From Vibrio pomeroyi (GTDB lineage Bacteria; Pseudomonadota; Gammaproteobacteria; Enterobacterales; Vibrionaceae), in contig NZ_AP025506.1 of the NCBI RefSeq assembly GCF_024347595.1, positions 2,046,001 through 2,110,000 on the forward strand: a stretch of DNA of 64,000 nt. Direction: 5' to 3'. The notes under the pieces were generated by a model. The model ran no database searches, was not told where the DNA came from, and worked only from the letters and a program-made list of their open reading frames with translations. Shown here in pieces: positions 27,674-52,527 of the stretch. Each line of letters opens with the position of its first letter. Positions within the stretch are counted from its first letter, which is position 1. A program made the position numbers and the translations under genes.

Positions 27674-27687
27674 TGGAATAAATCGAT

Positions 27688-29099: not shown

Positions 29100-29100
29100 C

Positions 29101-29613: not shown

Positions 29614-29629
29614 ACATTTTACCTTCGTA

Positions 29630-29651
29630 AGCGCCCCATATTTGAGGCGCT
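29630..29651 (-). terminator. Hairpin between katA and the membrane pair
   Basis: AGCGCC and GGCGCT arms around about ten bases, without a U-tract. It lies after katA (gap of about 90 bp) and just before the ribosome site of the next gene, so it may be a weak or rho-assisted terminator, or a leader structure. Confidence 0.35.
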
Positions 29652-29739
29652 GTAGACTTACCTTAGACCATTACTTCACAAATATTGCGGCTGAACAAGT
29701 GTAAACCCCAACGATTCCGGGAAACTAAAAAACCATCCA

Positions 29740-31224
29740 TCATACTTCCACGTCACTTTGAGCAATAACATGCTCCCCCTCCATCTCGGAGAGTTCAAAA
29801 CCCAATAATTTCGCTAAGCCTTGCGCGTAATTACGATCGGCGAGAAGTGCATGTTGAACATGTTTCAGTTGCACTTTCCTAGAGGCAGAGCTAATTGAAC
29901 GTGCTGTATTTTCAAATAGACTCTTCTGTTCACTCGATGTCATAATTCGGAACAAATTGCCTGCTTGAGTGAAGTAATCCGTGTCTTCACGATGATCCCA
30001 ATGGTTCACTTCGCCCTCTAGTTCTAGCGCAGGTTCAGCATGCTCTGATTGCTGTGCCCATTCTCCATACTGGTTCGGCTCATAGCCTTTGGTTGAACCA
30101 AAGTTGCCGTCAACACGCATCGCACCATCACGATGGTAGCTATGCACAGGGCAACGTGGCGCATTCACTGGAATTTGATGATGATTAACGCCCAAACGGT
30201 AACGCTGCGCATCACCGTAAGCAAATAAACGACCTTGCAACATTCGGTCTGGAGAGAATCCAATTCCGGGTACGATAGCGGCAGGGTTAAATGCTGATTG
30301 CTCAACTTCTGCAAAGAAGTTTTCTGGATTGCGGTTGAGCTCAAGCTCCCCGACTTCAATCAACGGAAAACGCGCATGAGGCCATACTTTTGTTAGATCA
30401 AATGGGTTGAACTCAACGTCGTTCGCTTCTTTCTCTGTCATCACTTGGATTTGCATCGTCCATTTCGGGAACTCTCCATTTTCGATGCTATCGTAGAGAT
30501 CACGATGATGGCTTTCTCGGTCTTGACCAATCAGTGTCTCTGCTTCTTGATCCGTCAGGTTCTTGATTCCCTGCTGTGTTTTGAAGTGGAACTTCACCCA
30601 AACACGTTCGTTGTCTGAATTGATCATACTGAAGGTATGGCTACCGTAACCATTCATATGACGGTACGTTGCTGGAAGACCTCGATCACTCATCACAATC
30701 GTCACTTGATGGAATGCTTCAGGAAGTGACGTCCAAAAGTCCCAATTATTTTCGGCGCTGCGCATATTAGTGCGCGGATCGCGCTTTACCGCGTGATTCA
30801 AGTCCGGAAACTTGAGTGGATCTCGTAAAAAGAATACCGGAGTGTTGTTACCCACTAAGTCCCAGTTTCCCTCTTCTGTATAGAACTTAAGTGCGAAACC
30901 ACGAATATCACGCTCAGCGTCTGCAGCTCCTCTCTCGCCTGCAACCGTTGTAAAGCGAGCAAACAGTTCGGTTGTTTTGCCAATTTCAGAGAAAATTGAC
31001 GCCTTCGAATACTTGGTAATATCGTTAGTCACTGTGAATTTGCCATAAGCCCCAGAACCTTTCGCATGCATTCGACGTTCAGGAATCACTTCACGGTCAA
31101 AATGTGCAAGCTTTTCCAAAAACCAGACATCTTGCAAAAGCATCGGACCACGTTTACCCGCAGTCATTACATTTTGGTTATGTGCAACAGGACAACCTGC
31201 TGCTGTGGTGAGTTTATTTTTCAT
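29740..31224 (-). CDS. katA: Monofunctional heme catalase
   Basis: This 494-residue small-subunit (clade 3 type) catalase converts hydrogen peroxide to water and oxygen. It has the distal catalytic H53 ([13 protein letters not shown]), the conserved Asn in [10 protein letters not shown] (about 126-127), and the heme-ligand Tyr in [14 protein letters not shown]. No signal peptide, so it is cytosolic. It starts only 43 bases after the stop of the sulfatase maturase gene in the same direction with no obvious terminator between, so read-through from the maturase promoter is plausible. The symbol follows the usual name for this type. Confidence 0.93.
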
Positions 31225-31267
31225 TGACTTCGTTCCTTAATGATTGAAAATTAACACTTACTCAAAA

Positions 31268-32455
31268 CTACGCCGTAATACGCTTTACGAACATGGGATA
31301 AACTGCAGCCGGGTGTCCTAGCTTGATTGCCTCTAGCATTGCGGCAAAATAAGGCATTGCGTGCACAAAGAATTTTTTATATCCAAAACATAAATGATTT
31401 AAACCCGGCTCAAGGTCTGCGGTAAGAGAAGTACGCTCTTTTGGGCAGCCGCCATTGCACATTGGTCTGAAATCGCACTCTCGGCACCGCTTAGGCAGTG
31501 ACTTCCACTTGTTTAAACCAAATTCAACTTGCTTCGAGGAGGATGCTAGAGCGCCTAAATCTACCGATTCTATATCGCCAACTTTATGATTTTCATAGCT
31601 ATAGTGGTCACAAGAGTAAATACTGCCATCATGTTCTAGCATCATTTGTTGGCCACAAGTTTCCGAATGGAAACACATTTGACTTGGTTGACCCGCAAGA
31701 ATACCGAGCGTGTTCTCAAAAAACTGAATGTGTACTTTCCCCACGTCTTCTTTGCGCCACTCATCGAATACATCACACAAAAAGTGCCCCCACTGATGTG
31801 GGGTCAAAGACCAGTCTTTTTCCCCACGACGATCAAGGGAGTGCTCAACGCAAGGCTGAAACTGAATGACGTTAGAACCTAATTTTTTGAGTGTCTGATA
31901 GGTTTGCTTACCTAGATGCGCGTTGTCGTTATGCACAACGGTCAAGGTATTGAACTGTACTTTATGTTTTTGCAGCTTGGAGAGGCCACGTAATACTCGT
32001 GAGTAGCTGCCATTCCCTTTTACGTCAGGTCGGCCTAAGTCATGATTTAGCTCGTCACCATCAATACTAAGTCCGATCAAGAAATTATTCTTTTTGAAGA
32101 ATTTCGCCCATTTCTCGTTGATCAGAGTTCCATTACTTTGGAATGTGTTTGAGATCGTCATACCTGAACGAGCATATTTTTTCTGCAGTTCTACAGCTCT
32201 TTCGTAAAATTCAAGACCGCGCAGTGCAGGCTCCCCACCTTGCCAACTGAAATCAACAAATTTGATGTGTTTTGGCTGAGCAGCGATGTATTGCTGGACA
32301 TATGTTTCCAAGAGAGCGTCTGACATCTGCATTGTCGCACCTGACTGATAACGCTCTTCTTTTCTCAAGTAGTAACAATAGTGACAATCTAAGTTACATT
32401 TTGAGCCAACAGGCTTAACCAAAAGGTGGAATGGGTGTGGTGATGTCATCGTCAT
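31268..32455 (-). CDS. Anaerobic sulfatase-maturating radical SAM enzyme (anSME)
   Basis: A 395-residue radical SAM/SPASM protein that converts the active-site Ser or Cys of sulfatases to formylglycine. The SAM cluster motif is C20-x3-C24-x2-C27 (CNLDCHYC), followed by FSWQGGEPALRG and LSIDGDELNHD. The C-terminal SPASM cysteines lie in CRECDFRPMCNGGCPKER and nearby. The family (AtsB/anSME) uses two auxiliary iron-sulfur clusters. The likely client is the Ser-type sulfatase at 34500. The ribosome site AGGAG lies eight bases before the ATG. A TAGGA-N4-TCCTA dyad sits 57 bases upstream of the start codon. Confidence 0.93.
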   Translation of the reverse strand: MTMTSPHPFHLLVKPVGSKCNLDCHYCYYLRKEERYQSGATMQMSDALLETYVQQYIAAQPKHIKFVDFSWQGGEPALRGLEFYERAVELQKKYARSGMTISNTFQSNGTLINEKWAKFFKKNNFLIGLSIDGDELNHDLGRPDVKGNGSYSRVLRGLSKLQKHKVQFNTLTVVHNDNAHLGKQTYQTLKKLGSNVIQFQPCVEHSLDRRGEKDWSLTPHQWGHFLCDVFDEWRKEDVGKVHIQFFENTLGILAGQPSQMCFHSETCGQQMMLEHDGSIYSCDHYSYENHKVGDIESVDLGALASSSKQVEFGLNKWKSLPKRCRECDFRPMCNGGCPKERTSLTADLEPGLNHLCFGYKKFFVHAMPYFAAMLEAIKLGHPAAVYPMFVKRITA

Positions 32456-32476
32456 ATCTGCGCTCCTGTTGGATTT

Positions 32477-32490
32477 AGGATAATTATCCT
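32477..32490. promoter_or_regulatory. Perfect 14-bp palindrome before the maturase gene
   Basis: AGGATAATTATCCT is a perfect palindrome 22 bases upstream of the maturase start codon. It shares AGGA and TCCT ends with the larger dyad at 32513 and may be a second half-spaced site, or simply an AT-rich -10 region. Confidence 0.4.
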
Positions 32491-32512
32491 TAGGCGGCCT
32501 AAATTAGACCAC

Positions 32513-32526
32513 TAGGACATTTCCTA
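32513..32526 (-). promoter_or_regulatory. TAGGA-N4-TCCTA dyad before the sulfatase maturase
   Basis: On the minus strand the site reads TAGGAAATGTCCTAGT, with a perfect TAGGA / TCCTA inverted repeat. It is 57 bases upstream of the maturase start codon, the same spacing as the dyad before the sulfatase gene. It is a candidate binding site for the NarL-type regulator encoded next door. Confidence 0.55.
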
Positions 32527-32563
32527 ACGGGAGGAGATATGGATTAGAGAGGTGGCGGGTAAG

Positions 32564-33157
32564 TTAGATGAACTTTCGACTGTGAGCCCAAGCAATAAGC
32601 TCAGATGCACTAGCAAGTTCAAGTTGTTCGATCATCTTGTATTTGTGGTATTCGACCGTTTTAGAAGAAATATTAAGCTCCAAAGCCACTTTCTTCGCAG
32701 AAAAACCTTGAGCTAATAGTTTAAGGATATCAACTTGTCTGGCGGTCAAATCCGTCTTTTGCTCAATAATGCTTTTCAACTCATCTGGTATGTAGCGTTC
32801 TCCGGCGAGTACATTTTTCATCGTCGCTGCTAGCTCAAAACCGGCTTGATGTTTCAGTACATACCCGTCAGCACCATATTGATATGCAGCCTTAACGATC
32901 TCTGGTTCATCATGCATAGATAAGCAAACAAGTTTACTGTTTGGCGAAGTTCGCTTAAGCAGTGAAAGCGTAGTGTTTAGCTGCATACCAGGCATAGAAA
33001 TATCGGTAATAATTAAGTCGGGCTGATGTTGCTTAACAAGCTGAAGTAGCTCTGTTGCGTCAACGCTAATCCCGACAACTTGGTGGGTTAAGTCCACTAA
33101 GCGGGCAATACCTTCACTGACTATCTGGTGGTCATCTGCAATTACAACGGTTGCCAT
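32564..33157 (-). CDS. NarL/LuxR-type response regulator
   Basis: A 197-residue regulator: receiver with D8-D9 and phospho-acceptor D52 (LIITDISMPG), and a C-terminal LuxR-type helix-turn-helix (LTARQVDILKLLAQGF through SSKTVEYHKYKM, about residues 136-185). It starts directly after the kinase stop (TAAATG), so the two are co-translated. The neighbouring sulfatase and maturase promoters carry a dyad of the kind NarL/FixJ-type dimers bind, which makes them the most likely targets; this is inference. Confidence 0.9.
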   Translation of the reverse strand: MATVVIADDHQIVSEGIARLVDLTHQVVGISVDATELLQLVKQHQPDLIITDISMPGMQLNTTLSLLKRTSPNSKLVCLSMHDEPEIVKAAYQYGADGYVLKHQAGFELAATMKNVLAGERYIPDELKSIIEQKTDLTARQVDILKLLAQGFSAKKVALELNISSKTVEYHKYKMIEQLELASASELIAWAHSRKFI

Positions 33158-34330
33158 TTATACCTCACTTGTTTTTATGGATAATTTAACTGTAGTTCCT
33201 GCTTTTGGATCATTACGTTTAATAACCAATTCTCCACCAATCAATTCTCCGCGTTCAATCATAGATTGAAGACCTAGCGAAGGAGATTGAGTATATGTTT
33301 GCTCTTGATCGATTCCGATACCGTCGTCTCGAATCGACAATTCTACGCGCCCGCAGCTATATGGCTTTAACGTGATTGTTACTGCAGAAGCATTTGCGTG
33401 TTTCACAATGTTGGATAACGCTTCTTGGATAATGCGATAGACATGCAATGAAACATCATTGTTAAAAGAAGTATCGTCATCAAGCTCAATCGATAAGTAC
33501 AACCCTGAGCGTTCGGCTACTTGTTCAGCATGAGATTGGATAGCGGCATTAAGCCCTACTCTTTCTATGACCACTGGGTGCAAATGACGAGACAGATGCT
33601 GAACATCTTTGGTGATTGATGCGAGTTCATTGGCGCACTTCATTAGCGCAGGTCTTGTGGTTTCATCACAAATACTAGAGACAAGACTGAGCTCGATCCC
33701 TAAAGAAGCAAGGCGTTGGCTGAAATCATCATGTAAATCGCGCGCAATATTCTGTCGTTCTCTTTCTCGTTCTCCAATGATGCGTTTGTTTCTCTCAACT
33801 ACATCTTGGCGGCTTTTTATTAGCTGCTCATAATGACGTACACGCTCAATACTGGATGCAATCATATTACCCAGCACTGTCGCCGCGTTTATAAACTCTT
33901 CTGAATAGCCGTCTACCTCACTAAAATTTGCACAGGCCAATAAGCCCCATGGTTTCCCCATAGCAGTTATTGGAACCAATATATGACGCAGCGGATTTTC
34001 ATCCTGTAAGTGACTAGCGAGCTCAAGCAGTTCTGGTGATTCCTCACTTGATACAACAACTCCCGCTTGGATATGCCGACGATATTCTAAAACCAAGGAT
34101 TCCGGAAGTTGAGATTTGACTCTGGGAACGCCTTCTCCCGCAGCCTCATAAAATCGCCAGTCACGTATTCTGGTTTGTTCAATAGGCAAGCATGATATAC
34201 GGTCGACTTTTAAAGCAATTCGACATTCATGTAGCGTCTCTATGATGGTTTCTTCCATTTGTGCTGTTGGAGAATTTAATAACCGACTAGACATGGATAT
34301 TAATGCTGAAGTGATTGAATCAGATAGCAT
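33158..34330 (-). CDS. GAF-domain histidine kinase of the NarX/DegS (HPK7) class
   Basis: A 390-residue kinase without membrane helices. An N-terminal GAF domain (about residues 20-165) precedes a dimerisation and phospho-acceptor region (ERQNIARDLHDDFSQRLASLG, His in the second half) and a HATPase_c domain with YRIIQEALSNIVKHA and IRDDGIG. The HisKA_3 type pairs with NarL-type regulators, as here. Being soluble, it senses a cytosolic or diffusible signal (GAF ligand, redox or nucleotide). I chose the ATG at 34330 because AGAGG precedes it; an upstream ATG at 34348 has no ribosome site. Confidence 0.9.
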   Translation of the reverse strand: MLSDSITSALISMSSRLLNSPTAQMEETIIETLHECRIALKVDRISCLPIEQTRIRDWRFYEAAGEGVPRVKSQLPESLVLEYRRHIQAGVVVSSEESPELLELASHLQDENPLRHILVPITAMGKPWGLLACANFSEVDGYSEEFINAATVLGNMIASSIERVRHYEQLIKSRQDVVERNKRIIGERERERQNIARDLHDDFSQRLASLGIELSLVSSICDETTRPALMKCANELASITKDVQHLSRHLHPVVIERVGLNAAIQSHAEQVAERSGLYLSIELDDDTSFNNDVSLHVYRIIQEALSNIVKHANASAVTITLKPYSCGRVELSIRDDGIGIDQEQTYTQSPSLGLQSMIERGELIGGELVIKRNDPKAGTTVKLSIKTSEV

Positions 34331-34381
34331 TTGTAAACCTCTTTTCATTAATGAACTTCATTACCATAAACAGCAACACCC

Positions 34382-34401
34382 AAAATACCTAGTAGTATTT
34401 T
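34382..34401. promoter_or_regulatory. Inverted repeat in the kinase-sulfatase divergent region
   Basis: AAAATAC and GTATTTT arms around CTAGTA form a perfect dyad 51 bases upstream of the kinase start codon. It includes CCTAGT, a word shared with the dyads of this region, and may be an autoregulatory site. Confidence 0.4.
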
Positions 34402-34428
34402 AAGTAAGTAGCTCAACTTCAATTCGTT

Positions 34429-34442
34429 TAGGAATTGTCCTA
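34429..34442 (+). promoter_or_regulatory. TAGGA-N4-TCCTA dyad before the sulfatase gene
   Basis: TAGGAATTGTCCTA, within CGTTTAGGAATTGTCCTAGT, is 57 bases upstream of the sulfatase ATG. It shares CGTTTAG-N-AAT-N2-TCCTAGTTCA with the site before the MoxR operon (36091). Confidence 0.6.
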
Positions 34443-34499
34443 GTTCAGTTCATTTTGGAAAAAAAACATACTGTGCTCATCTTATTTCAGGAGCATCTT

Positions 34500-36023
34500 A
34501 TGAAAACCCTTTCTAAAAGCTTACTAAAGAAAACCGTGCTCAGCACTGCTGCATTAGCTACCGTTGCTGCAGCACCAGCAATAGCAAAAAACACTTCAGA
34601 GAAACCAAATATACTCGTCATCATGGCCGATGACATAGGTTGGTCAAACACCTCTGCCTACAACCTGGGCATGATGGGCTACAAAACGCCAAACATCGAC
34701 CGTATCGCAAATGAAGGCATGCTTTTCACTGACCACTATGGTCAACCAAGCTCAACTGCTGGTCGTGCAGCATTCCTAACTGGCCAACTTCCTGTTCGTA
34801 CAGGTCTTCTAAATGTGGGCCTGCCAGGCTCTCCGGTCGGTATTCACCAAGATGATCCAACGCTGGCTGAAGTGCTTAAAGAGCAAGGTTACTTCAATGT
34901 ACAACTTGGTAAAAATCACCTTGGTGACCGTGAGCACATGATGCCTCACCGCCGCGGTTTTGATTTCTTCTATGGCAACCTCTACCACCTAAACGCTGAA
35001 GAAGAGCCAGAACACCCGGATTACCCACAAGATCCAGAGTTTTTCGAACGCTTCGGCCCTCGTGGTATTGTCACGGGCACAGCCGATGGCCCAACTGAGT
35101 CGGCAGGACCTCTCACTAAGAAGCGCATGGAGACCATCGACCGTGAACTAACGGACATGGCTCTGGATTACCTAGAGGACTTTGCCAAGACCGATGACCC
35201 ATTCTTCATGTGGTATAACCCATCTCGAATGCACGTATGGACTCACCTAAGCGAAGAGTGGCAAGGTAAAACTGGCTACGGTCTGTACGCAGATGGTATG
35301 GCTGAACTAGACCACTACGTGGGTGAGATTCTAGAAAAGCTAGAGGAAACCGGTCAACGTGACAACACAGTTATCATCTTCACTACCGACAACGGTGCAG
35401 AGAAGATGTCTTGGCCAGATGGCGGTAACACACCGTTTAAAGGTGAGAAAGGCCTGACGTCTGAAGGTGGTGTGCGTGTACCATTCATGGTTAGCTGGCC
35501 CGGTCACATCCCTGAAGGTGCTCGTAACAACGGTATCCAGTCTCATGAAGACTTGTTTACTACTCTAGCAACAATTGCTGGTGTTAAAGATGTTCAAGAG
35601 TCGTTCAAGACAAAACATGACGTTTACATTGATGGCTACGACCATACTAACGCGTGGTTCAACAACGAAGACACTGAACGTAACGAGATTTTCTACTTTG
35701 CTGAAACAGGTAACTTAGAAGCGGTTCGCGTTGGTAAGATCAAAGCAACCTTTATCCATCCAACAGAAGAGAGCTGGTTCGCTCCACGTCTAGCCTCTAC
35801 TTGGCCAGAACTGGTTGACCTACGTGCAGACCCATATGAGGAAGCGCCAGAACACTCAGGGATGTACCTACGTTGGTACGCAGAACGTATGTTCCACTTC
35901 GTTCCAATCCAAGTTGAAGTGGCAGGCCTACTACAGACGTTTAACGAATTCCCACTGCGTCAGGAGCCAACTGCATTCAACTTAGACCGAGTGCTGTCTT
36001 CTCTACCTTATCGCGAGGAATAA
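34500..36023 (+). CDS. Secreted Ser-type sulfatase
   Basis: A 507-residue sulfatase with a signal peptide (hydrophobic core about 12-27, cleavage near AIA29). The N-terminal metal site is MADDIGW (D44-D45). The modification motif S85-T-A-G-R89 followed by AAFLTG fits the S-x-A-x-R form of Ser-type sulfatases such as Klebsiella AtsA, in which anSME makes formylglycine from Ser. Later metal and active-site residues lie in GKNHLGD and FTTDNGAEK. It hydrolyses sulfate esters, probably in the periplasm or outside; the natural substrate is unknown. CAGGAGC before the ATG at 34500 decides the start. The adjacent maturase and two-component genes support a dedicated unit. Confidence 0.93.
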   Translation: MKTLSKSLLKKTVLSTAALATVAAAPAIAKNTSEKPNILVIMADDIGWSNTSAYNLGMMGYKTPNIDRIANEGMLFTDHYGQPSSTAGRAAFLTGQLPVRTGLLNVGLPGSPVGIHQDDPTLAEVLKEQGYFNVQLGKNHLGDREHMMPHRRGFDFFYGNLYHLNAEEEPEHPDYPQDPEFFERFGPRGIVTGTADGPTESAGPLTKKRMETIDRELTDMALDYLEDFAKTDDPFFMWYNPSRMHVWTHLSEEWQGKTGYGLYADGMAELDHYVGEILEKLEETGQRDNTVIIFTTDNGAEKMSWPDGGNTPFKGEKGLTSEGGVRVPFMVSWPGHIPEGARNNGIQSHEDLFTTLATIAGVKDVQESFKTKHDVYIDGYDHTNAWFNNEDTERNEIFYFAETGNLEAVRVGKIKATFIHPTEESWFAPRLASTWPELVDLRADPYEEAPEHSGMYLRWYAERMFHFVPIQVEVAGLLQTFNEFPLRQEPTAFNLDRVLSSLPYREE

Positions 36024-36049
36024 ACCTCCTCAATCATTGGGTACATAAA

Positions 36050-36079
36050 CAAAGGTGCGCTTAATGCGCACCTTTTCTC
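36050..36079 (+). terminator. Rho-independent terminator
   Basis: AAAGGTGCGC and GCGCACCTTT arms with a five-base loop followed by TCTCG, 27 bases after the sulfatase stop. It separates the sulfatase from the MoxR operon, which has its own dyad. Confidence 0.8.
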
Positions 36080-36094
36080 GTTCTGAAGCTCGTT

Positions 36095-36108
36095 TAGTAA
36101 TACTCCTA
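36095..36108 (+). promoter_or_regulatory. TAGKA-N4-TCCTA dyad before the MoxR operon
   Basis: TAGTAATACTCCTA, within CGTTTAGTAATACTCCTAGT, is 90 bases upstream of the GTG start. One arm has a single mismatch to TAGGA, but the flanks match the sulfatase site closely. Confidence 0.5.
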
Positions 36109-36198
36109 GTTCATCACCACCTTCACAGTTATTACTCTAACAGCTTTGAATAGTTCTACTTCAGCCTTCGGGCTAAACTACGCCCCCAAGGAGATAGC

Positions 36199-37158
36199 GT
36201 GAGCGTACAAAACAACCACTTTATTACGTTACAAGAGAAAATTAATTTGCGCGTGCTTGGCCAGGAAAAGCCTGTTGAGCAGTTAGTCATCGCTCTGCTT
36301 GCCAACGGTCATGTTCTTCTCCAAGGTTTACCTGGTCTCGCTAAAACCCGCAGTGTAAGCGTAATGGCTAGCCAATTAGATTCCGATCTAAACCGCATTC
36401 AGTTCACACCGGATATGCTTCCTGCTGACATCACGGGTAGCGAAGTTTACGAAAGTAATACTCAATCGCTGACATTCAAAAAAGGTCCTGTATTTACTCA
36501 CCTTTTGCTGGCCGATGAAATCAACCGAGCTCCAGCTAAGGTGCAATCAGCACTGCTTGAAGCGATGGCAGAAAAACAAGTTTCGATAGCAGGAGAAACA
36601 CACAAATTACCAGAACTGTTCATGGTTCTCGCCACACAAAACCCAGTTGAACAAGAAGGTACCTACCCACTGCCTGAAGCGCAGATGGATCGTTTCTTAA
36701 TGCAGATCTTGATTGATTATCCAAGCAAAGACGCTGAAAAAAACATGCTCAAACTCTTGCGGATTGAGAACCAAGACTCCACTAGGAGCGAACCGCTCAT
36801 GACCATCGAACAAGTGCTAGAGGCACGCCGTCATATTGATAATATTCATGTCGCCGAACATGTAGATCAATACATTGTCGACCTAATCGATGCGACTCGC
36901 TACCCAGACAAGTGTGACGAACAGCTTAGCCAGTGGATTGAGTTGGGGGCTAGCCCTCGTGCAACTATCGCGTTAGACAAATGTTCACGTGCTCACGCAT
37001 GGTTAAACGGTCAAGATTACGTGACGCCGGACAACGTAAGAGCGGTGGCCCATTCAGTACTTCGCCACCGCTTGGTATTGAGTTTTACTTCTCAAAATCA
37101 AGGAGTAGATGCTGAGCAAGTCATCGATCAACTTCTAAATTGCGTTGCATTTTCTTAA
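36199..37158 (+). CDS. MoxR-family AAA+ ATPase
   Basis: A 319-residue cytosolic ATPase: Walker A GLPGLAKT (residues 43-50), Walker B LLLADEINRAPAKVQSALLE (about 98-117), sensor region VLATQNPVEQEGTYPLPEAQ and a C-terminal lid with GASPRATIALDK. MoxR ATPases act with VWA-domain partners in maturation or assembly of protein complexes, often in the envelope. The start is GTG with AAGGAGAT before it. It is the first of six tightly packed genes to 42444, of which two encode VWA proteins. Confidence 0.93.
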   Translation: MSVQNNHFITLQEKINLRVLGQEKPVEQLVIALLANGHVLLQGLPGLAKTRSVSVMASQLDSDLNRIQFTPDMLPADITGSEVYESNTQSLTFKKGPVFTHLLLADEINRAPAKVQSALLEAMAEKQVSIAGETHKLPELFMVLATQNPVEQEGTYPLPEAQMDRFLMQILIDYPSKDAEKNMLKLLRIENQDSTRSEPLMTIEQVLEARRHIDNIHVAEHVDQYIVDLIDATRYPDKCDEQLSQWIELGASPRATIALDKCSRAHAWLNGQDYVTPDNVRAVAHSVLRHRLVLSFTSQNQGVDAEQVIDQLLNCVAFS

Positions 37159-37173
37159 TCGCGAGGAGGCTTT

Positions 37174-38088
37174 ATGACCGTCGATCTTCGTATCTATCCG
37201 ACTTCAGAAAGGCTTGCAGAGCTAACCTTGCTAGGGCGTAAGATTTCGTGGCAACCCCCTTACCAAAAGTTGACTCCTCTTACTGGTAAGCATCGCAGTC
37301 AACAACGTGGCAGAGGGTTGGATTTTGTCGAACTTCGTCACTACTACGCAGGTGATGATGTTCGCTGTATTGACTGGAAAGTAACACAACGAACGGGTCA
37401 ACCCTATTTACGAGTTTACGCTGAGGAAAACGATAAGAATATCGCTCTGCTCATCGATCTTAGAACTCGTATGTTTTTTGCGTCCGATGGCCACATGAAA
37501 TCTGCCATTGCTTGTGAAGCTGCAGCAATTGCTGCGGGCGCAGCTTGTCATCATGGCGATCGCGTAGGCGCTGTCATTCTTACCGACAGTGACATAGTCA
37601 CGTTACCATTTCGACGCGGGGAAAAAGCGCTCATGGCTCTTTTATCTGCGATCATAGATCAATCAAACAAACTCCCAAATTGGATAGTGTCTAAAAAGGC
37701 CCCCAATTTAGAAGACGCATTAAAGCACTTAGTCGATCTTGGATTAAAAGAGAGCCAGTGTTTTATTTTTAGTGACTTCAGCGACTACGACCAACGAGAT
37801 TCAAGCGTAATGATTGATAAGTTAGCTCGTCAAAATAGTCTAGTGGGCATCCGAATTACCGATCCGCTGGAAGAACAATTCCCTAAGCAGAATCTAGTCA
37901 TGGGCAATGAAAGCTATCAAGTCGAACTGAAGAAAAGCGATCGACCTATCAGAGCTCGTTATGAACAGTACGTCCAAGAGCAAAAACAATCGCTATCAGA
38001 GCACTTTATACGCCATCGTTTGGCATTGCTTGATATGACGACTCAGCAGGATGCTTGGACACAATTACTTTCACTGACCAAACAATAG
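37174..38088 (+). CDS. DUF58-domain protein
   Basis: A 304-residue soluble protein of the DUF58 family that always accompanies MoxR ATPases. Visible marks are SQQRGRGLDFVELRHYYAGD at about residues 47-66, IDWKVTQRTGQPYLRVYAEE and a Rossmann-like VWA-type region (NIALLIDLRTRMFF). It is thought to be an adaptor or VWA-like partner. It follows MoxR by 15 bases with GAGGAGG as ribosome site. Confidence 0.88.
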   Translation: MTVDLRIYPTSERLAELTLLGRKISWQPPYQKLTPLTGKHRSQQRGRGLDFVELRHYYAGDDVRCIDWKVTQRTGQPYLRVYAEENDKNIALLIDLRTRMFFASDGHMKSAIACEAAAIAAGAACHHGDRVGAVILTDSDIVTLPFRRGEKALMALLSAIIDQSNKLPNWIVSKKAPNLEDALKHLVDLGLKESQCFIFSDFSDYDQRDSSVMIDKLARQNSLVGIRITDPLEEQFPKQNLVMGNESYQVELKKSDRPIRARYEQYVQEQKQSLSEHFIRHRLALLDMTTQQDAWTQLLSLTKQ

Positions 38089-38095
38089 GCATTTT

Positions 38096-38572
38096 ATGGG
38101 TAATTTTACACAAGGCCAAATTGTCGAGTTTGGTAGTCATCTAGTAAAGCGAGCGGAATGGATTTCTCCGCCTCAAGCTATTTCGTGGTATCCACAAACG
38201 ATCACGTGGCTGTTCATTGGGCTCACAAGCATCGTTGTGGTATTTGGCTATATTGCTCATCGTTATCACCAATATCTTAAGCGTACCTACTTACGCGAAG
38301 CTTGGGCGTTGTTTCAGAAATACGAACACCAACAGAACATTGCCGCTATTGCGCAGTTAATGAAGCAGCTAGCACATCAACACTGGCCTAAGTCCGATAT
38401 CGGCACAATGACCAACCAGGAGTTTGCTCAATTCATATGTCAAAGCAGTGCTACCAAACTACATTCAGTGCAGGTCTCTCAATTAATGGAAAGCAGCTAT
38501 CGCGCATCACCCACTCTTACAGATCTCGAGCGACAAGCGATCAGACGTTGGTTTAAGGAGGTGACATGTTAA
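38096..38572 (+). CDS. DUF4381-like membrane protein
   Basis: A 158-residue protein with one transmembrane helix (about residues 38-58) and a C-terminal helical domain (AWALFQKYEHQQNIAAIAQL onward). Position and layout match the DUF4381 proteins found between DUF58 and VWA genes in MoxR operons of gammaproteobacteria. The first VWA gene overlaps its end by seven bases. Its role in the complex is unknown. Confidence 0.75.
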   Translation: MGNFTQGQIVEFGSHLVKRAEWISPPQAISWYPQTITWLFIGLTSIVVVFGYIAHRYHQYLKRTYLREAWALFQKYEHQQNIAAIAQLMKQLAHQHWPKSDIGTMTNQEFAQFICQSSATKLHSVQVSQLMESSYRASPTLTDLERQAIRRWFKEVTC

Positions 38573-39561
38573 CCCTCACTTATCCTCTATTCAGTCTGCT
38601 GATTTTGCTACCTTTAGTGATTTTTCTGAGTCCCAAACACTTCACTCGTCAGACCGCACTGCGTTTTAGTCACTTCGATAAGTTAGTTAAAGTCACAGGT
38701 TCTAAACCAACTTCTGGCGCTGTGGTGATGTCACCTATTTGGTGGCAACGTCTTCTTATTGTGGTGACATACCTAAGTTTGGTTATCGCTGCAACAAAAC
38801 CTGTTTGGCTAGGTGAGCCCGTTTCAATAGAAAAAAGTGGTCGTGAAATGATGGTGGCCGTCGATCTTTCCGGATCTATGGAGGCTCGCGATTTTGTCGA
38901 TGCAGACGGTATCAACGTTCGCCGCGTCGATGGCGTTAAGTTACTGTTGGACGAATTTTTATCACAACGCGAAGGTGATCGAATCGGCTTGATTGCATTT
39001 GGCGATGACGCCTACCTACAAGCCCCATTTACTGATGACTTCGCTATTATTGCTCAGCTACTCAATGAAATGGACGTACGAATGGCAGGAGCGGGAACCG
39101 CCCTCGGTGATGCGATTGGTGTGGCCGTCAATCACTTCGAACATTCAAACAGTGCCAACAAAGTATTGATCCTCATGACGGATGGCCGTGATACCACCAG
39201 CAACTACCCTCCCATTGACGCAGCCCATTTTGCGGGTGAAAACGACATTACTATCTACCCCATTGCCATTGGCGACGCAACCAACGTTGGTGAGGATAGC
39301 ATCGACTTAGAAATGTTAGAGCGTATTGCCAATTACACTGGCGGCCAGGTATTTGAAGCGCTCAATGGGCAAGATTTAGTTGAAGTATATAGCGCACTAA
39401 ACGAGCTCGAAGCAACGCTTTTTGATAGTTACACCATACGGCCAAAAGTCGAACTCTATTACTGGCCACTTATTGTCAGTTTATTCCTCAACCTACTGAC
39501 ATTAGTTGTTGCTGCACTTCGCGGGCAAAGTAATACGAATAAAGGAGACAAAAATGGCTGA
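38566..39561 (+). CDS. VWA-domain membrane protein (BatA-like)
   Basis: A 331-residue protein with N-terminal helices (about residues 5-20 and 62-78), a von Willebrand A domain with a complete MIDAS motif (VDLSGSMEARD for D-x-S-x-S, later GAGTALGDAIG and LMTDGRD) and a C-terminal helix (about residues 303-320). This is the BatA layout, with the VWA domain in the periplasm. It overlaps the previous and following genes, so subunit synthesis is coupled. Confidence 0.9.
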   Translation: MLTLTYPLFSLLILLPLVIFLSPKHFTRQTALRFSHFDKLVKVTGSKPTSGAVVMSPIWWQRLLIVVTYLSLVIAATKPVWLGEPVSIEKSGREMMVAVDLSGSMEARDFVDADGINVRRVDGVKLLLDEFLSQREGDRIGLIAFGDDAYLQAPFTDDFAIIAQLLNEMDVRMAGAGTALGDAIGVAVNHFEHSNSANKVLILMTDGRDTTSNYPPIDAAHFAGENDITIYPIAIGDATNVGEDSIDLEMLERIANYTGGQVFEALNGQDLVEVYSALNELEATLFDSYTIRPKVELYYWPLIVSLFLNLLTLVVAALRGQSNTNKGDKNG

Positions 39562-41137
39562 ATTTCATTTCATTCGACCATGGTTACTTTTGTTAGCCAT
39601 TCCTTTAGGCATTTTGGTCTATGTCCTCAAGAGAAAAGTAGACAACAGTGAACGGCTTCCTATCGCCGCTCACCTGTTGCCATTTCTCAATGCAGGAGAA
39701 AGCCAAACGCGTTGGTTTTCTCCTCAGAACTTGCTACCACTTTTCCTAGGTCTGCTGACTATCATTGTGGCAGGTCCAACATGGCAGCCAGAACCTGATA
39801 CCCACGCAAAAAACCATTCGCCGATTCTATTTGTGGTTGATTTATCACGTTCAATGGGTGAGTCCGATATTGCACCAAGTCGCCTTGAAAATGCCAAATT
39901 GAAGTTATCCGACCTATTAGAATACAAATCTGATGGGATTATTGGTGCGTATGTCTATGCTGGCAGCGCTCATATGCTCATTCCACCGACAGAGGATCGG
40001 GAAGTGCTTGAACTGTATCTTTCTTCTTTATCAACAAACCTCGTCCCTAGACAAGGGAAAAACCTGCCAGCTGTCTTGGATCAGATTGCCCAGCAACAGA
40101 CAGAGAGTAGCATCCCAGCAAGCATTGTCGTTGTAACAGACAGCCTCGATAACAGTGCTGCTCAAGCCATAGAGAATTATGAACGTACCTACCGTGATCA
40201 AATGATCGTTTGGAAATTTGGTTACAACGAAACTGTCGGTTCTCCCTCGGATGTCCGTCTAATTCAAAGTACTCCTGACCATAGCGACGTTCAAAGTATT
40301 AGCCGATGGATAGACAGCTTCAGTTACTTTGATCCAATGGATGAAGATATACAATGGCAAGAAGCCGGATTTTATCTCGTCTTCCCTGCTCTGCTGTTTA
40401 GTTTACTTTGGTTTCGCCGAGGCTGGAGTATCCGTTGGGTTCCTAGCGTATTGATCAGTATTGTTGCTCTCAGTGCCTTTCAACCAAGCCCGGCTTTAGC
40501 AAAGTCGTCGACTGATCTCACCACGTGTGATTCACTGTCAATGAGGCTCTTCCTCACGCCAGATCAGCAAGGACAATGGTTTTATAACCAAGGCAATTAT
40601 GCATGTGCTGCACAAGCCTTCATCGATCCTGATTGGAAAATTGAATCCCTCATGCGCAATCAGCAGTGGGAATGGGCGCTGACCATGCTCAACAATCAGC
40701 CGGACTCTCTCGAAAAACGCTACAAAGTGGCTCTTGCTTATTTGCATATTGACCGTTTTCGTTCATCAGAGCGTTGGTTTGAACAAGTATTAGAATTAGA
40801 CCCACAGCACCCACAAGCACTTCACAACCTTGATTTGCTTGAAGAGATTTTCGACCTCATGGCTGATCGTGCGCAAGGCCAAGGCACCGCCGGAGAGGAC
40901 ATGACTGCCGATGTCATTTCCACACTAGAAGAAGATATGGGAATTGAAGAACCTGAAGACAAAATTGAAGTCATCAACAGTGCAGATTTAATGGCAGAAG
41001 AGCATTTGACTAAAATTTGGCTGGAGCAAGTTAAATCCAACCCTGAAGTGTTCCTTCGCAATAAGTTCTCTATTCAACTGCAGCAAATAGACAAACCCGT
41101 TTTGGTCGGCGAGCACACCCAACAGGAGGTGAAGTAA
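39554..41137 (+). CDS. VWA-TPR membrane protein (BatB-BatC-like fusion)
   Basis: A 527-residue protein with N-terminal helices, a VWA domain with MIDAS D-x-S-x-S (VVDLSRSMGESD) and VVTDSLD, a central pair of hydrophobic segments (about residues 283-315), and a C-terminal TPR region (ALAYLHIDRFRSSERWFEQV, then LDPQHPQALHNLD) ending in an acidic tail. It joins the BatB and BatC roles in one chain. The ATG at 39554 has AAAGGAGAC before it and overlaps the previous gene by eight bases. Confidence 0.9.
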   Translation: MAEFHFIRPWLLLLAIPLGILVYVLKRKVDNSERLPIAAHLLPFLNAGESQTRWFSPQNLLPLFLGLLTIIVAGPTWQPEPDTHAKNHSPILFVVDLSRSMGESDIAPSRLENAKLKLSDLLEYKSDGIIGAYVYAGSAHMLIPPTEDREVLELYLSSLSTNLVPRQGKNLPAVLDQIAQQQTESSIPASIVVVTDSLDNSAAQAIENYERTYRDQMIVWKFGYNETVGSPSDVRLIQSTPDHSDVQSISRWIDSFSYFDPMDEDIQWQEAGFYLVFPALLFSLLWFRRGWSIRWVPSVLISIVALSAFQPSPALAKSSTDLTTCDSLSMRLFLTPDQQGQWFYNQGNYACAAQAFIDPDWKIESLMRNQQWEWALTMLNNQPDSLEKRYKVALAYLHIDRFRSSERWFEQVLELDPQHPQALHNLDLLEEIFDLMADRAQGQGTAGEDMTADVISTLEEDMGIEEPEDKIEVINSADLMAEEHLTKIWLEQVKSNPEVFLRNKFSIQLQQIDKPVLVGEHTQQEVK

Positions 41138-42444
41138 TGGGCACGTTCAAACGTTTCATCGATGATATAGGGACCGCCATCGCTTTTGGCATGATACTCA
41201 TGGCAAGTTTAAGTGCTCAAGCATCCATCTCTACAAATGATCCACTGTCGCTTGCATCTTCTCAACCGCCAAACACAGTGAATACGCAGTACCATGCCCG
41301 CTGGGCTCTAGGTAGTGAAACCTTTACAGAGAGGCAACGCCATACCGTTTTCCTAGAACTTCTCAGTGACGCAGCCATTACTGATGTCATCAACGTTGAA
41401 ACGATTTCAGCCAAAGATCTCTTTTTTGAGCAAACCACCACATTTTGGCAATACACTAGGCCAACAGAAAACGGCAAACGTGTTGAAAAAGCAGCATTAA
41501 AGTTAGAACTATTTCCAGCTAAACCTGGAGAGTTCACTTTACCAGGTATCAACATCACCCTTGGCCGTAGTGACAACGTGGTTACTATTCCAACACAGCC
41601 ATTGAAGATCACGGTAAAAGCACTTCCTGAGGCTGCGAAAGGTAAGATTGCCTCTCCTAACGTCACAGTAGAGCAAACTGTCAGTGACGTAGAGATCACT
41701 GAAGGCGGCGCGGTAACCCGTTCAGTCTCTCTCAATGTTGCTGATTTGCCAGGGCACTATATTTCAGAACTGCCATTGATTAACCAGATTGAAGACGTTG
41801 AAATTCGTACTGGCAATAGCCAAACGACAACCCAAACATTCCGCGCAGATATGACTGGCACACGCATTACAGATATTCACTATCGATTTGTTCACAAAGG
41901 GCAATACACCCTACCTGAACTGTCATTCCAGTGGTGGAACACAACAAAACGTAAAGTAGAGAAAATTTCGCTGCCAGCCATAACGGTGGAGGTCAACTCT
42001 GCACCACCTTTGCCTTTAGATCAGCGTATTGAGCTATGGAGTTCAAATATAAAGCTGTGGTTGGAAGAACAACGTAAAACACTCATTTTAGGGTTGTTAG
42101 TTGTGCTTGGCTTATGGCGTTTACGTTTTAAGTTTTCTCACTTATGGAAAGTGTTAAAAGTGCAGAATCAAACTGCCCTTCACTCTTCTTTTGTAAAACG
42201 CTTAATAACCATTTTTTGGGTTGCTGTAGGGACAAAAAAATGTGCCAGCCAAGCACTTTATCAATGGTTTTCATATCATGGAATTTATGACCTAAACCAT
42301 TACCCAACACTGAAAAATGGCATCCGTACTAACAAACAAGGTCAGTGGCATTTAAAACGCTACATAGTTGTTTGGGTGTTAACGAATGAAGTCAGACAAC
42401 AATGGCGAGTAAAGTACCGATTAAAGCCGATCAATCCTGCGTAA
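41137..42444 (+). CDS. BatD-like protein
   Basis: A 435-residue protein with an N-terminal signal or anchor (about residues 10-30), an extracytoplasmic beta-rich region (ARWALGSETFTERQRH, KLELFPAKPGEFTLPGINIT, TDIHYRFVHKGQYTLPEL), one transmembrane helix (about residues 312-330) and a basic cytoplasmic tail. The KPGEFTLP and KGQYTLPEL strands are those of BatD (oxygen-tolerance) proteins. Its start overlaps the previous stop (TAATG). It is the last gene of the MoxR operon. Confidence 0.85.
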   Translation: MGTFKRFIDDIGTAIAFGMILMASLSAQASISTNDPLSLASSQPPNTVNTQYHARWALGSETFTERQRHTVFLELLSDAAITDVINVETISAKDLFFEQTTTFWQYTRPTENGKRVEKAALKLELFPAKPGEFTLPGINITLGRSDNVVTIPTQPLKITVKALPEAAKGKIASPNVTVEQTVSDVEITEGGAVTRSVSLNVADLPGHYISELPLINQIEDVEIRTGNSQTTTQTFRADMTGTRITDIHYRFVHKGQYTLPELSFQWWNTTKRKVEKISLPAITVEVNSAPPLPLDQRIELWSSNIKLWLEEQRKTLILGLLVVLGLWRLRFKFSHLWKVLKVQNQTALHSSFVKRLITIFWVAVGTKKCASQALYQWFSYHGIYDLNHYPTLKNGIRTNKQGQWHLKRYIVVWVLTNEVRQQWRVKYRLKPINPA

Positions 42445-42454
42445 ATTCGTAAAG

Positions 42455-42476
42455 CTAGGACTAGGGAAAGTCCTAG
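42455..42476 (+). promoter_or_regulatory. Dyad after batD and before the small secreted protein gene
   Basis: CTAGGACT and AGTCCTAG arms around AGGGAA give a perfect 8-bp inverted repeat. Inside it, TAGGGAAAGTCCTA (42462-42475) matches the TAGGA-N4-TCCTA consensus with one mismatch and is 69 bases upstream of the ATG at 42545. It could also fold as a terminator hairpin for the MoxR operon, but no U-tract follows. Confidence 0.5.
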
Positions 42477-42544
42477 TTAATCTCTTTTAGTAATCAATGT
42501 AATGTTTGAGTTACTTACACGGTCAACCACAAAGAGTTGTTAAT

Positions 42545-42922
42545 ATGAAATTTAACAAAATCCTATTTTTTTTTGCCGCATTAACCTGCACGAATGCACT
42601 TGCAAAAGATACCGCTACGCCTGAAGCAGAAGAAAAGCGGCCAAACAAACCATTCGTTATTACTGGGGATGAAATTCAACCACTCTCAGATACTCATTGG
42701 CGAATTAAAGTCTCCTACGCAGAAGCCGTCAAAGTTCGTTGCATCGCGTTTGATGAAAAAGAACAAGCCGTTGCAATCGATTCTATCGCTGTGATTCCGC
42801 CTTTTTCTGTGTCTGATATGTATACACGAGAAGACGATGGCAAGATCGAGGAAGTAAAATGTTGGATCACCAGTACCCGCTCGGAAGATCTAGCCAAAGA
42901 CTACATTCGTCATGATACTTAG
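42545..42922 (+). CDS. Small secreted protein of unknown function
   Basis: A 125-residue protein with a signal peptide (MKFNKILFFFAALTCTNALA, cleavage near residue 20) and a mature domain of about 105 residues with two cysteines (VRCIAFDEKEQ and EVKCWITST) that may form a disulfide. No family recognised. The ATG at 42545 gives the signal peptide; a longer frame from 42506 would bury it. The upstream dyad links it to the sulfatase regulon, and the PafA-like phosphatase gene follows 114 bases later. Confidence 0.7.
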   Translation: MKFNKILFFFAALTCTNALAKDTATPEAEEKRPNKPFVITGDEIQPLSDTHWRIKVSYAEAVKVRCIAFDEKEQAVAIDSIAVIPPFSVSDMYTREDDGKIEEVKCWITSTRSEDLAKDYIRHDT

Positions 42923-43036
42923 AATGCACCAAAGCAGTTAGTGATTGGACACGATTACAGCATGCAGTGATGAATCTGAACGTAGAGAGAAAAGCTCGTT
43001 TTGGAGCGTAACCATATCGAAAACTGGATTAACAAT

Positions 43037-44728
43037 ATGAAGAACCTTGTCGTTAGTACCCTTGCACTCAGCATGTTATTTTCTTCAGGTGCTGTCATCG
43101 CAAACGAAACCCAGCCAAAACTCATTCTGCAGCTTACCGTTGACGCGCTGCGTGGTGACTTACCCAATCGATTTAAACACAATTTTGGTGAAGGTGGTTT
43201 TAGGCTGCTCTTAGATGAGGGCGTTCACTATACGAATGCACACTACCAACATGCGAACACAGAAACGATTGTAGGACACGCAGCCCTTGCTACAGGCGCA
43301 CCTCCCGCAGTAAACGGCATGATTGGTAATGTATGGTACGACCGAGCTCAAGAACGTGTGGTGTACAATATCGAGGATACTAACTACAACTTATTGGCAA
43401 TCGATGCTGACATCGATCAATCAACAGAGATCGATTCTACCCAACGCGCAGCACAAGGCGATGGTCGGTCACCGTTAAATATCCACACTTCTACAATTGG
43501 AGACGAAATTGTTAAAGCCTATCATGGTAAGTCTCGCGCCTTTTCTGTCTCTTTTAAAGACAGAGGGGCTGTGTCTTTAGGCGGTGAATTAGGCAAAGCT
43601 TTTTGGTTCTCTAAATCTGCCGGCGCATTTGTAACGAGTGATTATTACTACGACAAGAACCCAGCTTGGGTTAACGAGTGGAATGCCAAGGATTTTACTC
43701 AACAGTACAGCGGTAAGCGATGGGAACTCACTCTACCCCAAGAAAAGTATCTATTTTCTGATGATGGTGATGTCGAATATAAAATTGACTTAGCCAGTTT
43801 TAGTCGTAGCTTCCCTCACCCTTATGGTCCAGCTAACTACCCATACTTCACTACACTATTGAGCGTAAGCCCAGCAGGCGATGAGATCGTTGCAGATTTT
43901 GCAAAATCTGTCATTGACTCAGAAAGTTTAGGTCAAGGTGAATACCCCGATTACCTTTCGGTTAGTTTCTCAGCGACTGATTATGTCATCCATATGTATG
44001 GCCCTTCTAGTATCGAGGCAGAAGACAACCTAATACGTCTTGACCGCACATTAGAGGATCTATTCGCTCATGTGGACAAAACGGTTGGGCTTGATAACAC
44101 ACTTATAGTGTTGTCAGCAGATCACGGAGCCCCTGACGTCCCGGGCTACGTGAATGCGTTAGGTGGGAATAAAGCTGACTATTTTGGCATTGAAAAAATG
44201 AAACAGTCAGGCGTTTTTGAAGTGGTAAAGAAGCGTTTTGGATTAGGTGAGGATGTTGTTCGCCAATATGCCGATCCCTACCTATACCTGAACCATGAAC
44301 TGATTGAATCAAAAGGCTATAAAGTGTCAGAGGTTCAGACTGCTATCGCCCGCGCATTAGAAAACATCGATGGTATTAATCAAACAATTACAGCGACAGA
44401 TATTATGAAAGGTCAACTTTCAGATACGCGTATTAATCGACTAGTGGCTAACAACCATCACCCCACTCGTTCTGGAGATATCTATGTGGTTTACAACCCA
44501 AATGTTTACATCAACAACTTTGATGGTTTGAAAGTAGCTTCAGTTCACGGGTCTCCATGGCGCTATGATACTTTCGTTCCTATCTTTTTTGCAGGAATGG
44601 ATATCAAAGGTGCTAAAGTTCACCGGGAAGTCACCCCTTATGATATCGCGCCAACTATCTCTCAATTTATGGAAATCAACTTTCCGTCAGGTTCGACAGG
44701 AAGCGTACTCACAGAGGTCGTTCCTTAA
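43037..44728 (+). CDS. Secreted PafA-like alkaline phosphatase superfamily enzyme
   Basis: A 563-residue enzyme with a signal peptide (cleavage near VIA21-22). It carries the alkaline-phosphatase superfamily metal sites: LTVDALRGD, a nucleophile Thr in ANTETIVGHAALATG, SFSATDYVIHMYGP, LSADHGAPDVPG and SVHGSPWRYDTFVP. A Thr nucleophile followed by GHA is typical of PafA-type phosphomonoesterases and of nucleotide phosphodiesterases. Its place after a sulfatase and a MoxR operon is notable, because PafA and sulfatases share a fold. It does not need formylglycine. The ribosome site is weak. Confidence 0.88.
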   Translation: MKNLVVSTLALSMLFSSGAVIANETQPKLILQLTVDALRGDLPNRFKHNFGEGGFRLLLDEGVHYTNAHYQHANTETIVGHAALATGAPPAVNGMIGNVWYDRAQERVVYNIEDTNYNLLAIDADIDQSTEIDSTQRAAQGDGRSPLNIHTSTIGDEIVKAYHGKSRAFSVSFKDRGAVSLGGELGKAFWFSKSAGAFVTSDYYYDKNPAWVNEWNAKDFTQQYSGKRWELTLPQEKYLFSDDGDVEYKIDLASFSRSFPHPYGPANYPYFTTLLSVSPAGDEIVADFAKSVIDSESLGQGEYPDYLSVSFSATDYVIHMYGPSSIEAEDNLIRLDRTLEDLFAHVDKTVGLDNTLIVLSADHGAPDVPGYVNALGGNKADYFGIEKMKQSGVFEVVKKRFGLGEDVVRQYADPYLYLNHELIESKGYKVSEVQTAIARALENIDGINQTITATDIMKGQLSDTRINRLVANNHHPTRSGDIYVVYNPNVYINNFDGLKVASVHGSPWRYDTFVPIFFAGMDIKGAKVHREVTPYDIAPTISQFMEINFPSGSTGSVLTEVVP

Positions 44729-45035
44729 CCCATAAGTTTCAGTTATGAGATACGTAGCGGATAAGAAAGCCTGGCCACATGGCTAGAGAATTTGTCATTA
44801 GAAAAAACAAGTCAAATTGTACAACTTAAAGTCAGGTTCAATCTTGCTCTGGCGCACAATGGGGCATGAATGAGCTACAGCTTCCCCTAAATTAACAATT
44901 CAGAGATAACTAAAGGTATGGAAAGTCGCTTAACGTAGCGTCCAGTATTGATGGTGCAGATCACTGACAAGTATGCGGGTCTTCAGACAATATGCTTTTT
45001 TCAAATATTTAAAATCATGTTCTCTACTGCCTCTC
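44729..45035. other. Convergent intergenic region, no gene seen
   Basis: About 305 bp after the phosphatase gene with no clear terminator for it and no convincing gene. A plus-strand frame over 44973-45245 overlaps the convergent nuclease gene and has no ribosome site. Confidence 0.3.
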
Positions 45036-45066
45036 AATAAAAAAGCCCAAACAAAGGGTTGGGCTC
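45036..45066 (-). terminator. Terminator of the secreted endonuclease gene
   Basis: On the minus strand, AGCCCAA and TTGGGCT arms followed by TTTTTTATT, 45 bases after the stop at 45111. Confidence 0.8.
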
Positions 45067-45110
45067 AATTCAATAATCATGAAACCATTGTCACGGTGGT
45101 TATATTCCGA

Positions 45111-46727: not shown

Positions 46728-46881
46728 ATAACCTTCTGTTTAATTGGATAAAAACCAACTAAGCTTAGAAAGTAATCAAAAAATGAATGGAGATATACAT
46801 CACATTTATAAATGTAAGCATTATGGGTTTTATTAATATATGTGATGTAAAGCTATATAACTTCGACCAGTTAAATAAACG

Positions 46882-46921
46882 AAAAAAAAGCTGACCAGCT
46901 TATCTGGCTCAGCCTTTTTAC
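46882..46921 (-). terminator. Terminator of the YdjM-like gene
   Basis: On the minus strand, GCTGAGCCAG and CTGGTCAGC arms (one mismatch) around ATAAG, followed by TTTTTTTTCG. Confidence 0.85.
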
Positions 46922-46939
46922 TCTCAAGATCTCTAACCA

Positions 46940-52500: not shown

Positions 52501-52527
52501 AACTCTCCCTACCGCTTAAGTGCTGTG

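Follow-up and report, generated by a model that had tools for sequence, protein, structure and literature searches.

Within a 64,000-nucleotide stretch of the Vibrio pomeroyi genome (contig NZ_AP025506.1, positions 2,046,001 to 2,110,000; hereafter the window), a block of genes combines a secreted Ser-type sulfatase, its radical SAM maturase, a soluble sensor kinase with a NarL-type response regulator, a six-gene MoxR-DUF58-DUF4381-VWA-VWA-BatD operon, a small protein that is probably exported and a PafA-like phosphatase (Table 1). Each of these families is known by itself. We put at about even chances the interpretation that this is a mobile, locally regulated sulfatase/phosphatase regulon, in which a Bat-type MoxR/VWA complex would be dedicated to the exported enzymes of the block.

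The MoxR/VWA-sulfatase link is real, and is supported well beyond this block. A set of 61 genomes was profiled for matches to the sulfatase and to VWA1, the first of the two VWA proteins, without correction for kinship. Among close VWA1 relatives (above 215 bits), 28 of 33 have a sulfatase with a [C/S]TAGR motif no more than 10 kb away, against 0.4 expected by random placement. Distant relatives (below 215 bits) have one within 10 kb in none of 50 cases, including none of 24 in genomes with a sulfatase of this subfamily; the 215-bit line was chosen after a gap had been seen between 219.7 and 202.7 bits. Counted by genome, both genes occur in 23, VWA1 only in one (G014), the sulfatase only, in two pieces, in one (G009) and neither in 36. 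Matches of the subfamily sulfatase as two adjacent pieces were found at G009:C2:1516246-1517776 and also in L261 (G001).

Two further retrievals, in which sulfatase presence was counted by tblastn, gave a similar picture. Forty regions retrieved via BatD alone were split by eye into 23 sulfatase-type and 17 generic MoxR/BatD loci, and a sulfatase was present in 20 of the former and none of the latter. Retrieval by VWA1 alone, taking the best 80 of 426 loci from named organisms, yielded a sulfatase in 43 (38 when only the 60 loci with flanks of 9 kb or more on both sides are counted); the sulfatase of L154 is of another type and was left out of this count. These loci span Vibrio, Colwellia, Luminiphilus, metagenome-assembled genomes (MAGs) of Hahellaceae and Oleiphilaceae, and one MAG labelled Acidobacteriota. 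On the VWA1 tree, for which 33 of 125 rows were removed for short flanks and then near-duplicates, leaving 75 rows and losing most generic loci, the sulfatase label is clustered, with 9 changes vs 17.3 when shuffled. On the sulfatase tree, also cleared of near-duplicates and with 7 of its 73 retained rows unlabelled owing to short flanks, the MoxR-linked sulfatases are scattered over several clades (10 label changes, at least five of them forced by starred branches).

The sequence-only reading had suggested checking whether gene order is conserved in Vibrionaceae and Shewanella. The linkage holds for Vibrio and Colwellia, where the linkage of close VWA1 genes means that operon and sulfatase are neither far apart nor without co-occurrence. 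It does not extend to the three Shewanella loci, none of which has the subfamily sulfatase; two lack any sulfatase and one has a sulfatase of another type.

The position of the sulfatase varies between loci: it may lie upstream of moxR, divergent from it or in the same string. A single sulfatase-maturase-moxR gene string is present in eight Vibrio loci (L076, L080, L145, L151, L160, L180, L182 and L184), with a gap of only 2-3 nt between the radical SAM gene and moxR in two of them. PafA-like-sulfatase-moxR strings occur in a Hahellaceae MAG (L115, with the PafA-like gene split over two ORFs, or open reading frames) and an Oleiphilaceae MAG (L130). PafA-like genes were found near VWA1 in 16 of the 80 named loci and in none of the 17 generic loci; two loci of a class-level genome set described below (L246 and L255) have one beside the sulfatase, on a contig piece without MoxR. 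Where flanks were sufficient, a radical SAM maturase lies within 4.5 kb of all 11 Ser-type sulfatases and of two of 31 Cys-type enzymes. Ser-type sulfatases need an anSME, and the 11 of 11 fits this requirement. The G006 and G007 blocks enclose a further sulfatase-MoxR module, which includes a maturase of its own. The V. pomeroyi genome itself has a second sulfatase-MoxR cluster (G000:C2:1571001-1602000; L072 and L223), with two Cys-type sulfatases, an eight-haem cytochrome-TPR protein, a LysR gene, a PafA-like gene and zero exact dyads of the kind considered next.

That the four transcription units of the block form one regulon was proposed from the letters of the window; comparison now strongly supports this, and the regulon may be regarded as well supported on the predicted operator sites. 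A near-identical dyad, TTAGGAAnnnTCCTAGTT, lies upstream of all four units and at the same four places in the orthologous blocks of three further Vibrio genomes, namely G006, G007 and V. barjaei (L112). The copy before the small-protein/PafA-like unit is a TAGGG variant with one mismatch, and the variant is kept in all three relatives. The 16 sites from four genomes give a motif of 29.6 bits, with uniform orientation relative to the gene. At a single fixed spacing, a -10-like TAnnnT starts 24 nt after the 14-mer, with the A present in 16 of 16 and the T in 16 of 16. The orthologous dyads are not independent of one another; the four promoters within one genome are. The fixed distance would place the dyad centre near -42. 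Class II activators bind in this way, at a site that overlaps the -35 region.

The pattern TAGGAN4TCCTA, with at most one mismatch, has six matches in the window where 1.35 are expected; four of the six are in the block, and none of 100 shuffles reached six. The shared dyad of the sequence-only reading is thus borne out. In the 5.66-Mb genome, TAGGANNNNTCCTAGT has two exact matches, both inside the block, and 16 distinct one-mismatch sites, two of which are in the block. At up to two mismatches there are 192 matches vs 386 for a reversed control pattern, so that only near-exact sites carry weight. Among 124 loci (2.37 Mb), all nine exact dyads belong to the promoters of maturase, sulfatase and moxR in G006, G007 and V. 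barjaei, and are thus restricted to the three genomes with orthologues of the response regulator and kinase. A position weight matrix (PWM) scores the four block sites, its own training set, at 26-32 bits; the next score in the window, 11.1 bits, is the fourth site read backwards, followed by 8.7 bits. A chance dyad is ruled out by the genome, 124-locus and PWM scans.

A wider regulon was sought genome-wide, without result. Fourteen of the 16 one-mismatch sites are outside the block, 13 of these 14 within ORFs 80 aa or more in length, and no site outside exceeds 19.1 bits vs 26-32 bits for the training-set sites of the block. An RNA terminator was also considered for the dyad and rejected. In a terminator scan of 42400-45150 only, the one dyad of that stretch matches a terminator-like pattern, the three other dyads being outside the scanned stretch; the fixed -10 spacing at all 16 sites fits an operator better.

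In Aliagarivorans marinus (L113), homologous genes are present, a LysR-like gene replaces the kinase and regulator, and the PafA-like gene was not called. This locus has zero dyads at 0 or 1 mismatch, and one of its two-mismatch sites is between the LysR and sulfatase genes. The co-occurrence of dyad and two-component genes, together with what is known of the family, suggests that the NarL-type regulator binds the dyad.

ORF positions and family names in the block are as the sequence-only reading gave them, as confirmed by Pfam, TIGR03942 and the PafA match, with one exception: the TPR repeats claimed for the second VWA protein (VWA2) were not found by Pfam at E 1e-3. The maturase has both a CNLDCHYC cluster motif (CxxxCxxC) and a Cys-rich SPASM end (PF13186), as expected of an anSME. 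The REC-GerE regulator and HisKA_3 kinase have the Pfam domains of a NarL-type two-component pair, and the kinase lacks a strong hydrophobic segment (best 19-residue hydropathy 1.14). In the sulfatase, the S-T-A-G-R motif is at residue 85, its Ser aligned to the catalytic Cys of 7aj0; the usual sulfatase motif has Pro where this enzyme has Ala. DD at residue 44 and DNG at 297, which we take to be metal-site motifs, are also present. The PafA-like enzyme aligns with PafA (5tj3) over 537 residues (277 bits); the Thr, Asn and KDR positions are aligned, and the Thr, Asn, Lys and Arg are presumably the PafA active-site residues. For the small protein, a Foldseek search with the predicted model gave zero matches at E 0.001 or below, and a known fold was ruled out for it, the model being good and yet without an informative match.

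The MoxR-DUF58-DUF4381-VWA-VWA-BatD genes form one tight six-gene string, with gaps of -8 to 15 nt, as in Bat/MoxR-VWA operons. The DxSxS part of the metal-ion-dependent adhesion site (MIDAS; DxSxS-T-D) is seen in both VWA1 and VWA2. Hydropathy and the positive-inside rule indicate that both VWA domains are probably periplasmic, and MoxR and the DUF58 protein cytosolic.

Table 1. Features of the block in window coordinates. Several listed TTG/GTG gene starts are probably too early; the preferred starts are ATG 34500 for the sulfatase, 39554 for VWA2, 42545 for the small protein and 43037 for the PafA-like enzyme (PDE). TM, transmembrane.
Feature	Position	Strand	Evidence or remark
Anaerobic-type radical SAM/SPASM sulfatase maturase (anSME/AtsB type)	31268..32455	-	TIGR03942 503 bits, cut-off 349
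-10-like GATAAT, maturase unit	32483..32488	-	Fixed spacing to dyad
Dyad, predicted operator of maturase unit	32513..32526	-	PWM 26.4 bits (training-set site)
NarL/FixJ-type response regulator, proposed dyad binder	32564..33157	-	PF00072 + PF00196 (REC-GerE)
Soluble GAF-HisKA_3-HATPase sensor kinase	33158..34348	-	Pfam
Dyad, predicted operator of sulfatase	34429..34442	+	PWM 32.4 bits (training-set site)
-10-like CATACT, 24 nt after sulfatase dyad	34467..34472	+	Fixed spacing
Secreted Ser-type sulfatase, STAGR active-site motif	34500..36023	+	PF00884 193 bits
Dyad, predicted operator of moxR operon, 1 mismatch	36095..36108	+	PWM 29.0 bits (training-set site)
-10-like hexamer, moxR unit	36133..36138	+	Fixed spacing
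MoxR AAA+ ATPase, predicted cytosolic, Walker A GLPGLAKT	36199..37158	+	AAA_3, PF07726 214 bits
DUF58 protein, no TM segment, cytosolic by prediction	37174..38088	+	PF01882
DUF4381 protein, one TM segment	38096..38572	+	PF14316
VWA1 (BatA-like), MIDAS start DLSGS	38566..39561	+	PF00092
VWA2 (BatB-like), long C-terminal part, MIDAS start DLSRS	39554..41137	+	PF13519
BatD-like protein	41137..42444	+	PF13584
Dyad, predicted operator of small protein + PDE, TAGGG variant	42462..42475	+	PWM 27.6 bits (training-set site)
-10-like TAATGT, small-protein unit	42500..42505	+	Fixed spacing
Small, probably exported protein	42545..42922	+	Beta-rich domain predicted, core pLDDT about 97; two invariant Cys
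PafA-like exported alkaline phosphatase-superfamily enzyme (PDE)	43037..44728	+	PF01663; PafA closest

The link is one-sided, and several observations weigh against a complex dedicated to sulfatases. In a class-level set of 274 genomes, 12 genomes besides that of the window carry the sulfatase at E 1e-80 or better, with 17 matches, and tblastn found MoxR or VWA1 in none of these 17 loci (nine full 20-kb stretches, the others shorter or ending at contig ends; 3-20 kb). Two class-level VWA1 loci, in G137 (215.5 bits) and G183 (215.2 bits), are without a sulfatase in 20 and 7.8 kb, respectively. Within the 61 genomes, 28 of the 67 sulfatase matches are more than 10 kb from any close VWA1. Of 19 loci of Halieaceae name or lineage, some with short flanks, 15 are without a sulfatase. 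Eight-haem cytochromes, a possible alternative client, adjoin moxR in many related clusters. The unlinked sulfatases and sulfatase-free operons show that the sulfatase can occur with no MoxR operon next to it, and that a related operon can lack the sulfatase.

Such independence would suit a set of genes that are co-regulated but separate in function. A single condition, e.g. anaerobiosis, sulfur or phosphorus starvation, or envelope stress, would then induce hydrolases that scavenge nutrients and a MoxR/VWA complex that protects or assembles an unrelated envelope complex. The 17 subfamily sulfatases without neighbouring MoxR in the retrieved DNA favour this account, as does the diversity or obscurity of MoxR/Bat targets elsewhere, as reported for NorQD (PMC13036017) and Leptospira Bat (PMC3557215). 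We consider it rather unlikely. Other layouts, among them loci with LysR genes and the sulfatase-maturase-moxR strings, show the pairing too, so that a single regulator does not explain it, and the distant VWA1 genes of sulfatase-owning genomes are unlinked throughout.

It is less probable that the MoxR/VWA complex has an envelope redox protein, namely the eight-haem TPR cytochrome, as its main client and the sulfatase as a fellow traveller. Many of the related clusters have such a gene directly before moxR, and two of the eight sulfatase-maturase-moxR strings (L145 and L160) have one upstream. Three examples, at L072:15264-17630, L118:4959-7262 and L095:1963-4269, each have eight CXXCH haem motifs and lie between sulfatase and moxR; the one searched with Pfam (L072) combines TPR repeats with cytochrome c554-type domains. 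However, the sulfatase directly precedes moxR, with no cytochrome between, in the window block, G006, G007, V. barjaei and A. marinus, and the eight Ser-type strings likewise place sulfatase and maturase before moxR. In G007 a short form of the cytochrome-type protein has zero CXXCH.

FGE-fold proteins also occur in related clusters, and in L118 such a gene is likewise between sulfatase and moxR; the window block has neither an eight-haem cytochrome nor an FGE-fold gene. The FGE-fold protein of G007 has the lipobox Cys only and is thus unlikely to be a working oxidase. An FGE-fold lipoprotein in a sulfatase cluster (L069:3889-4674) has the lipobox Cys as its sole Cys. Human SUMF2 resembles it in that the catalytic Cys is missing.

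The block lies in a 19-kb stretch (27674-46939) between genes for an M32 carboxypeptidase and ydjM, which comprises an HlyD-type gene with a small ORF, a catalase gene, the block and an endonuclease gene. In G016 the ORFs of the M32 peptidase and ydjM follow one another at a distance of 74 bp, and in G005 and G010 different genes lie between them, indicating a variable insertion site. Catalase and block are found together again in G006 and G007, at a distance from the ydjM relatives there. By these comparisons the block behaves as mobile cargo. Shared mobility alone, with the sulfatase and MoxR genes as island cargo of no joint function, would account for this insertion but is very improbable, given the common dyads of fixed geometry, the single gene strings, the repeated pairing, in several families, with sulfatases of more than one subtype, and the orthologous blocks at other genomic places.

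Most of the flanking genes share 90-99% identity with their counterparts in the same-genus genomes G005, G010 and G016, and two sulfatases on the second chromosome match V. splendidus and V. lentus loci at 98-99% identity. Elsewhere in the window, 45111-46727 encodes an Endonuclease I with an N-terminal carbohydrate-binding domain (PF02018 + PF04231), and a glycine riboswitch (RF00504, 69 bits) at 19807-19926 precedes the gene at 20057. A run of nine small minus-strand ORFs (at least 120 aa) occupies 52018-57178, one having a relative near ydjM of G010; a single short two-copy repeat in this run gives no sign of a cassette array.

Klebsiella AtsA/AtsB is a Ser-type sulfatase with its own radical SAM maturase. 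The block shares this pairing (its maturase matching TIGR03942) but adds a two-component pair, a MoxR/VWA operon and a PafA-like phosphatase to the regulon. Vibrio vulnificus region XII includes an arylsulfatase regulator, COG0641, which we take to be of the maturase type. The block resembles Bat/MoxR-VWA operons of the Bacteroides aerotolerance type in gene set and order, an order also found in the 17 generic loci; in contrast to the generic Bat operons of the same genomes, its VWA1 group is linked to [C/S]TAGR sulfatases and lies in a sulfatase regulon. NorQ/NorD is likewise a MoxR-type AAA+ protein with a VWA partner having a DxSxS MIDAS start; NorD is a single partner, whereas the block has membrane-bound VWA proteins, with exported hydrolases as the proposed clients.

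According to PMC13036017, the NorQD pair is required for metal insertion into nitric oxide reductase. In Leptospira, a 2012 study reports that Bat deletion left growth, morphology and oxidative tolerance unchanged, and states that no specific Bat function had until then been demonstrated (PMC3557215). Region XII of V. vulnificus is described in PMC3091676 and PMC3360785 as a genomic island with arylsulfatases and the arylsulfatase regulator; MoxR is not mentioned in PMC3360785, and the likeness is taken from the published description. The MoxR/VWA-sulfatase link is not described in the passages seen of PMC7159879, PMC2997495 and PMC545781, a body of text that leaves the subscription literature largely uncovered.

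If the block is a dedicated regulon, the soluble kinase and NarL-type regulator would sense a signal, and the regulator would bind the dyad near -42 at four sigma70-type promoters as a class II activator. The units activated would be the maturase, the sulfatase, the MoxR-DUF58-DUF4381-VWA-VWA-BatD operon, and the small exported protein with the PafA-like phosphatase. From family knowledge, the maturase would act in the cytosol, turning the active-site Ser into formylglycine, and both sulfatase and PafA-like enzyme would be exported. The MoxR/VWA complex, with its cytosolic ATPase and periplasmic VWA domains, may then bring the exported alkaline phosphatase-superfamily enzymes to their active form, e.g. 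by folding or metal loading, as the linkage and the analogy with NorQD suggest. Sulfatases, like PafA-like phosphatases, are metal enzymes, and the two share a superfamily, which makes metal loading or folding the natural guess. A role in the assembly or quality control of sulfatase or phosphatase, as put forward in the sequence-only reading, would be in keeping with this.

More tentatively, and at less than even chances, one Bat-type MoxR/VWA/BatD group of marine gammaproteobacteria may be a dedicated ATP-driven activator of exported sulfatases, and of PafA-like phosphatases. Its contribution would follow formylglycine formation as a further maturation step, in which the enzymes are probably loaded with metal or folded across the inner membrane. 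Bat/MoxR-VWA systems are widespread, and a conserved, co-regulated link names a concrete candidate client with a simple assay. The shared switch ties the enzymes to an ATP-driven membrane machine, and so suggests its possible substrates. Sulfatases are important for the breakdown of marine sulfated glycans, and the proposed activation, if true, may represent a second step in their maturation.

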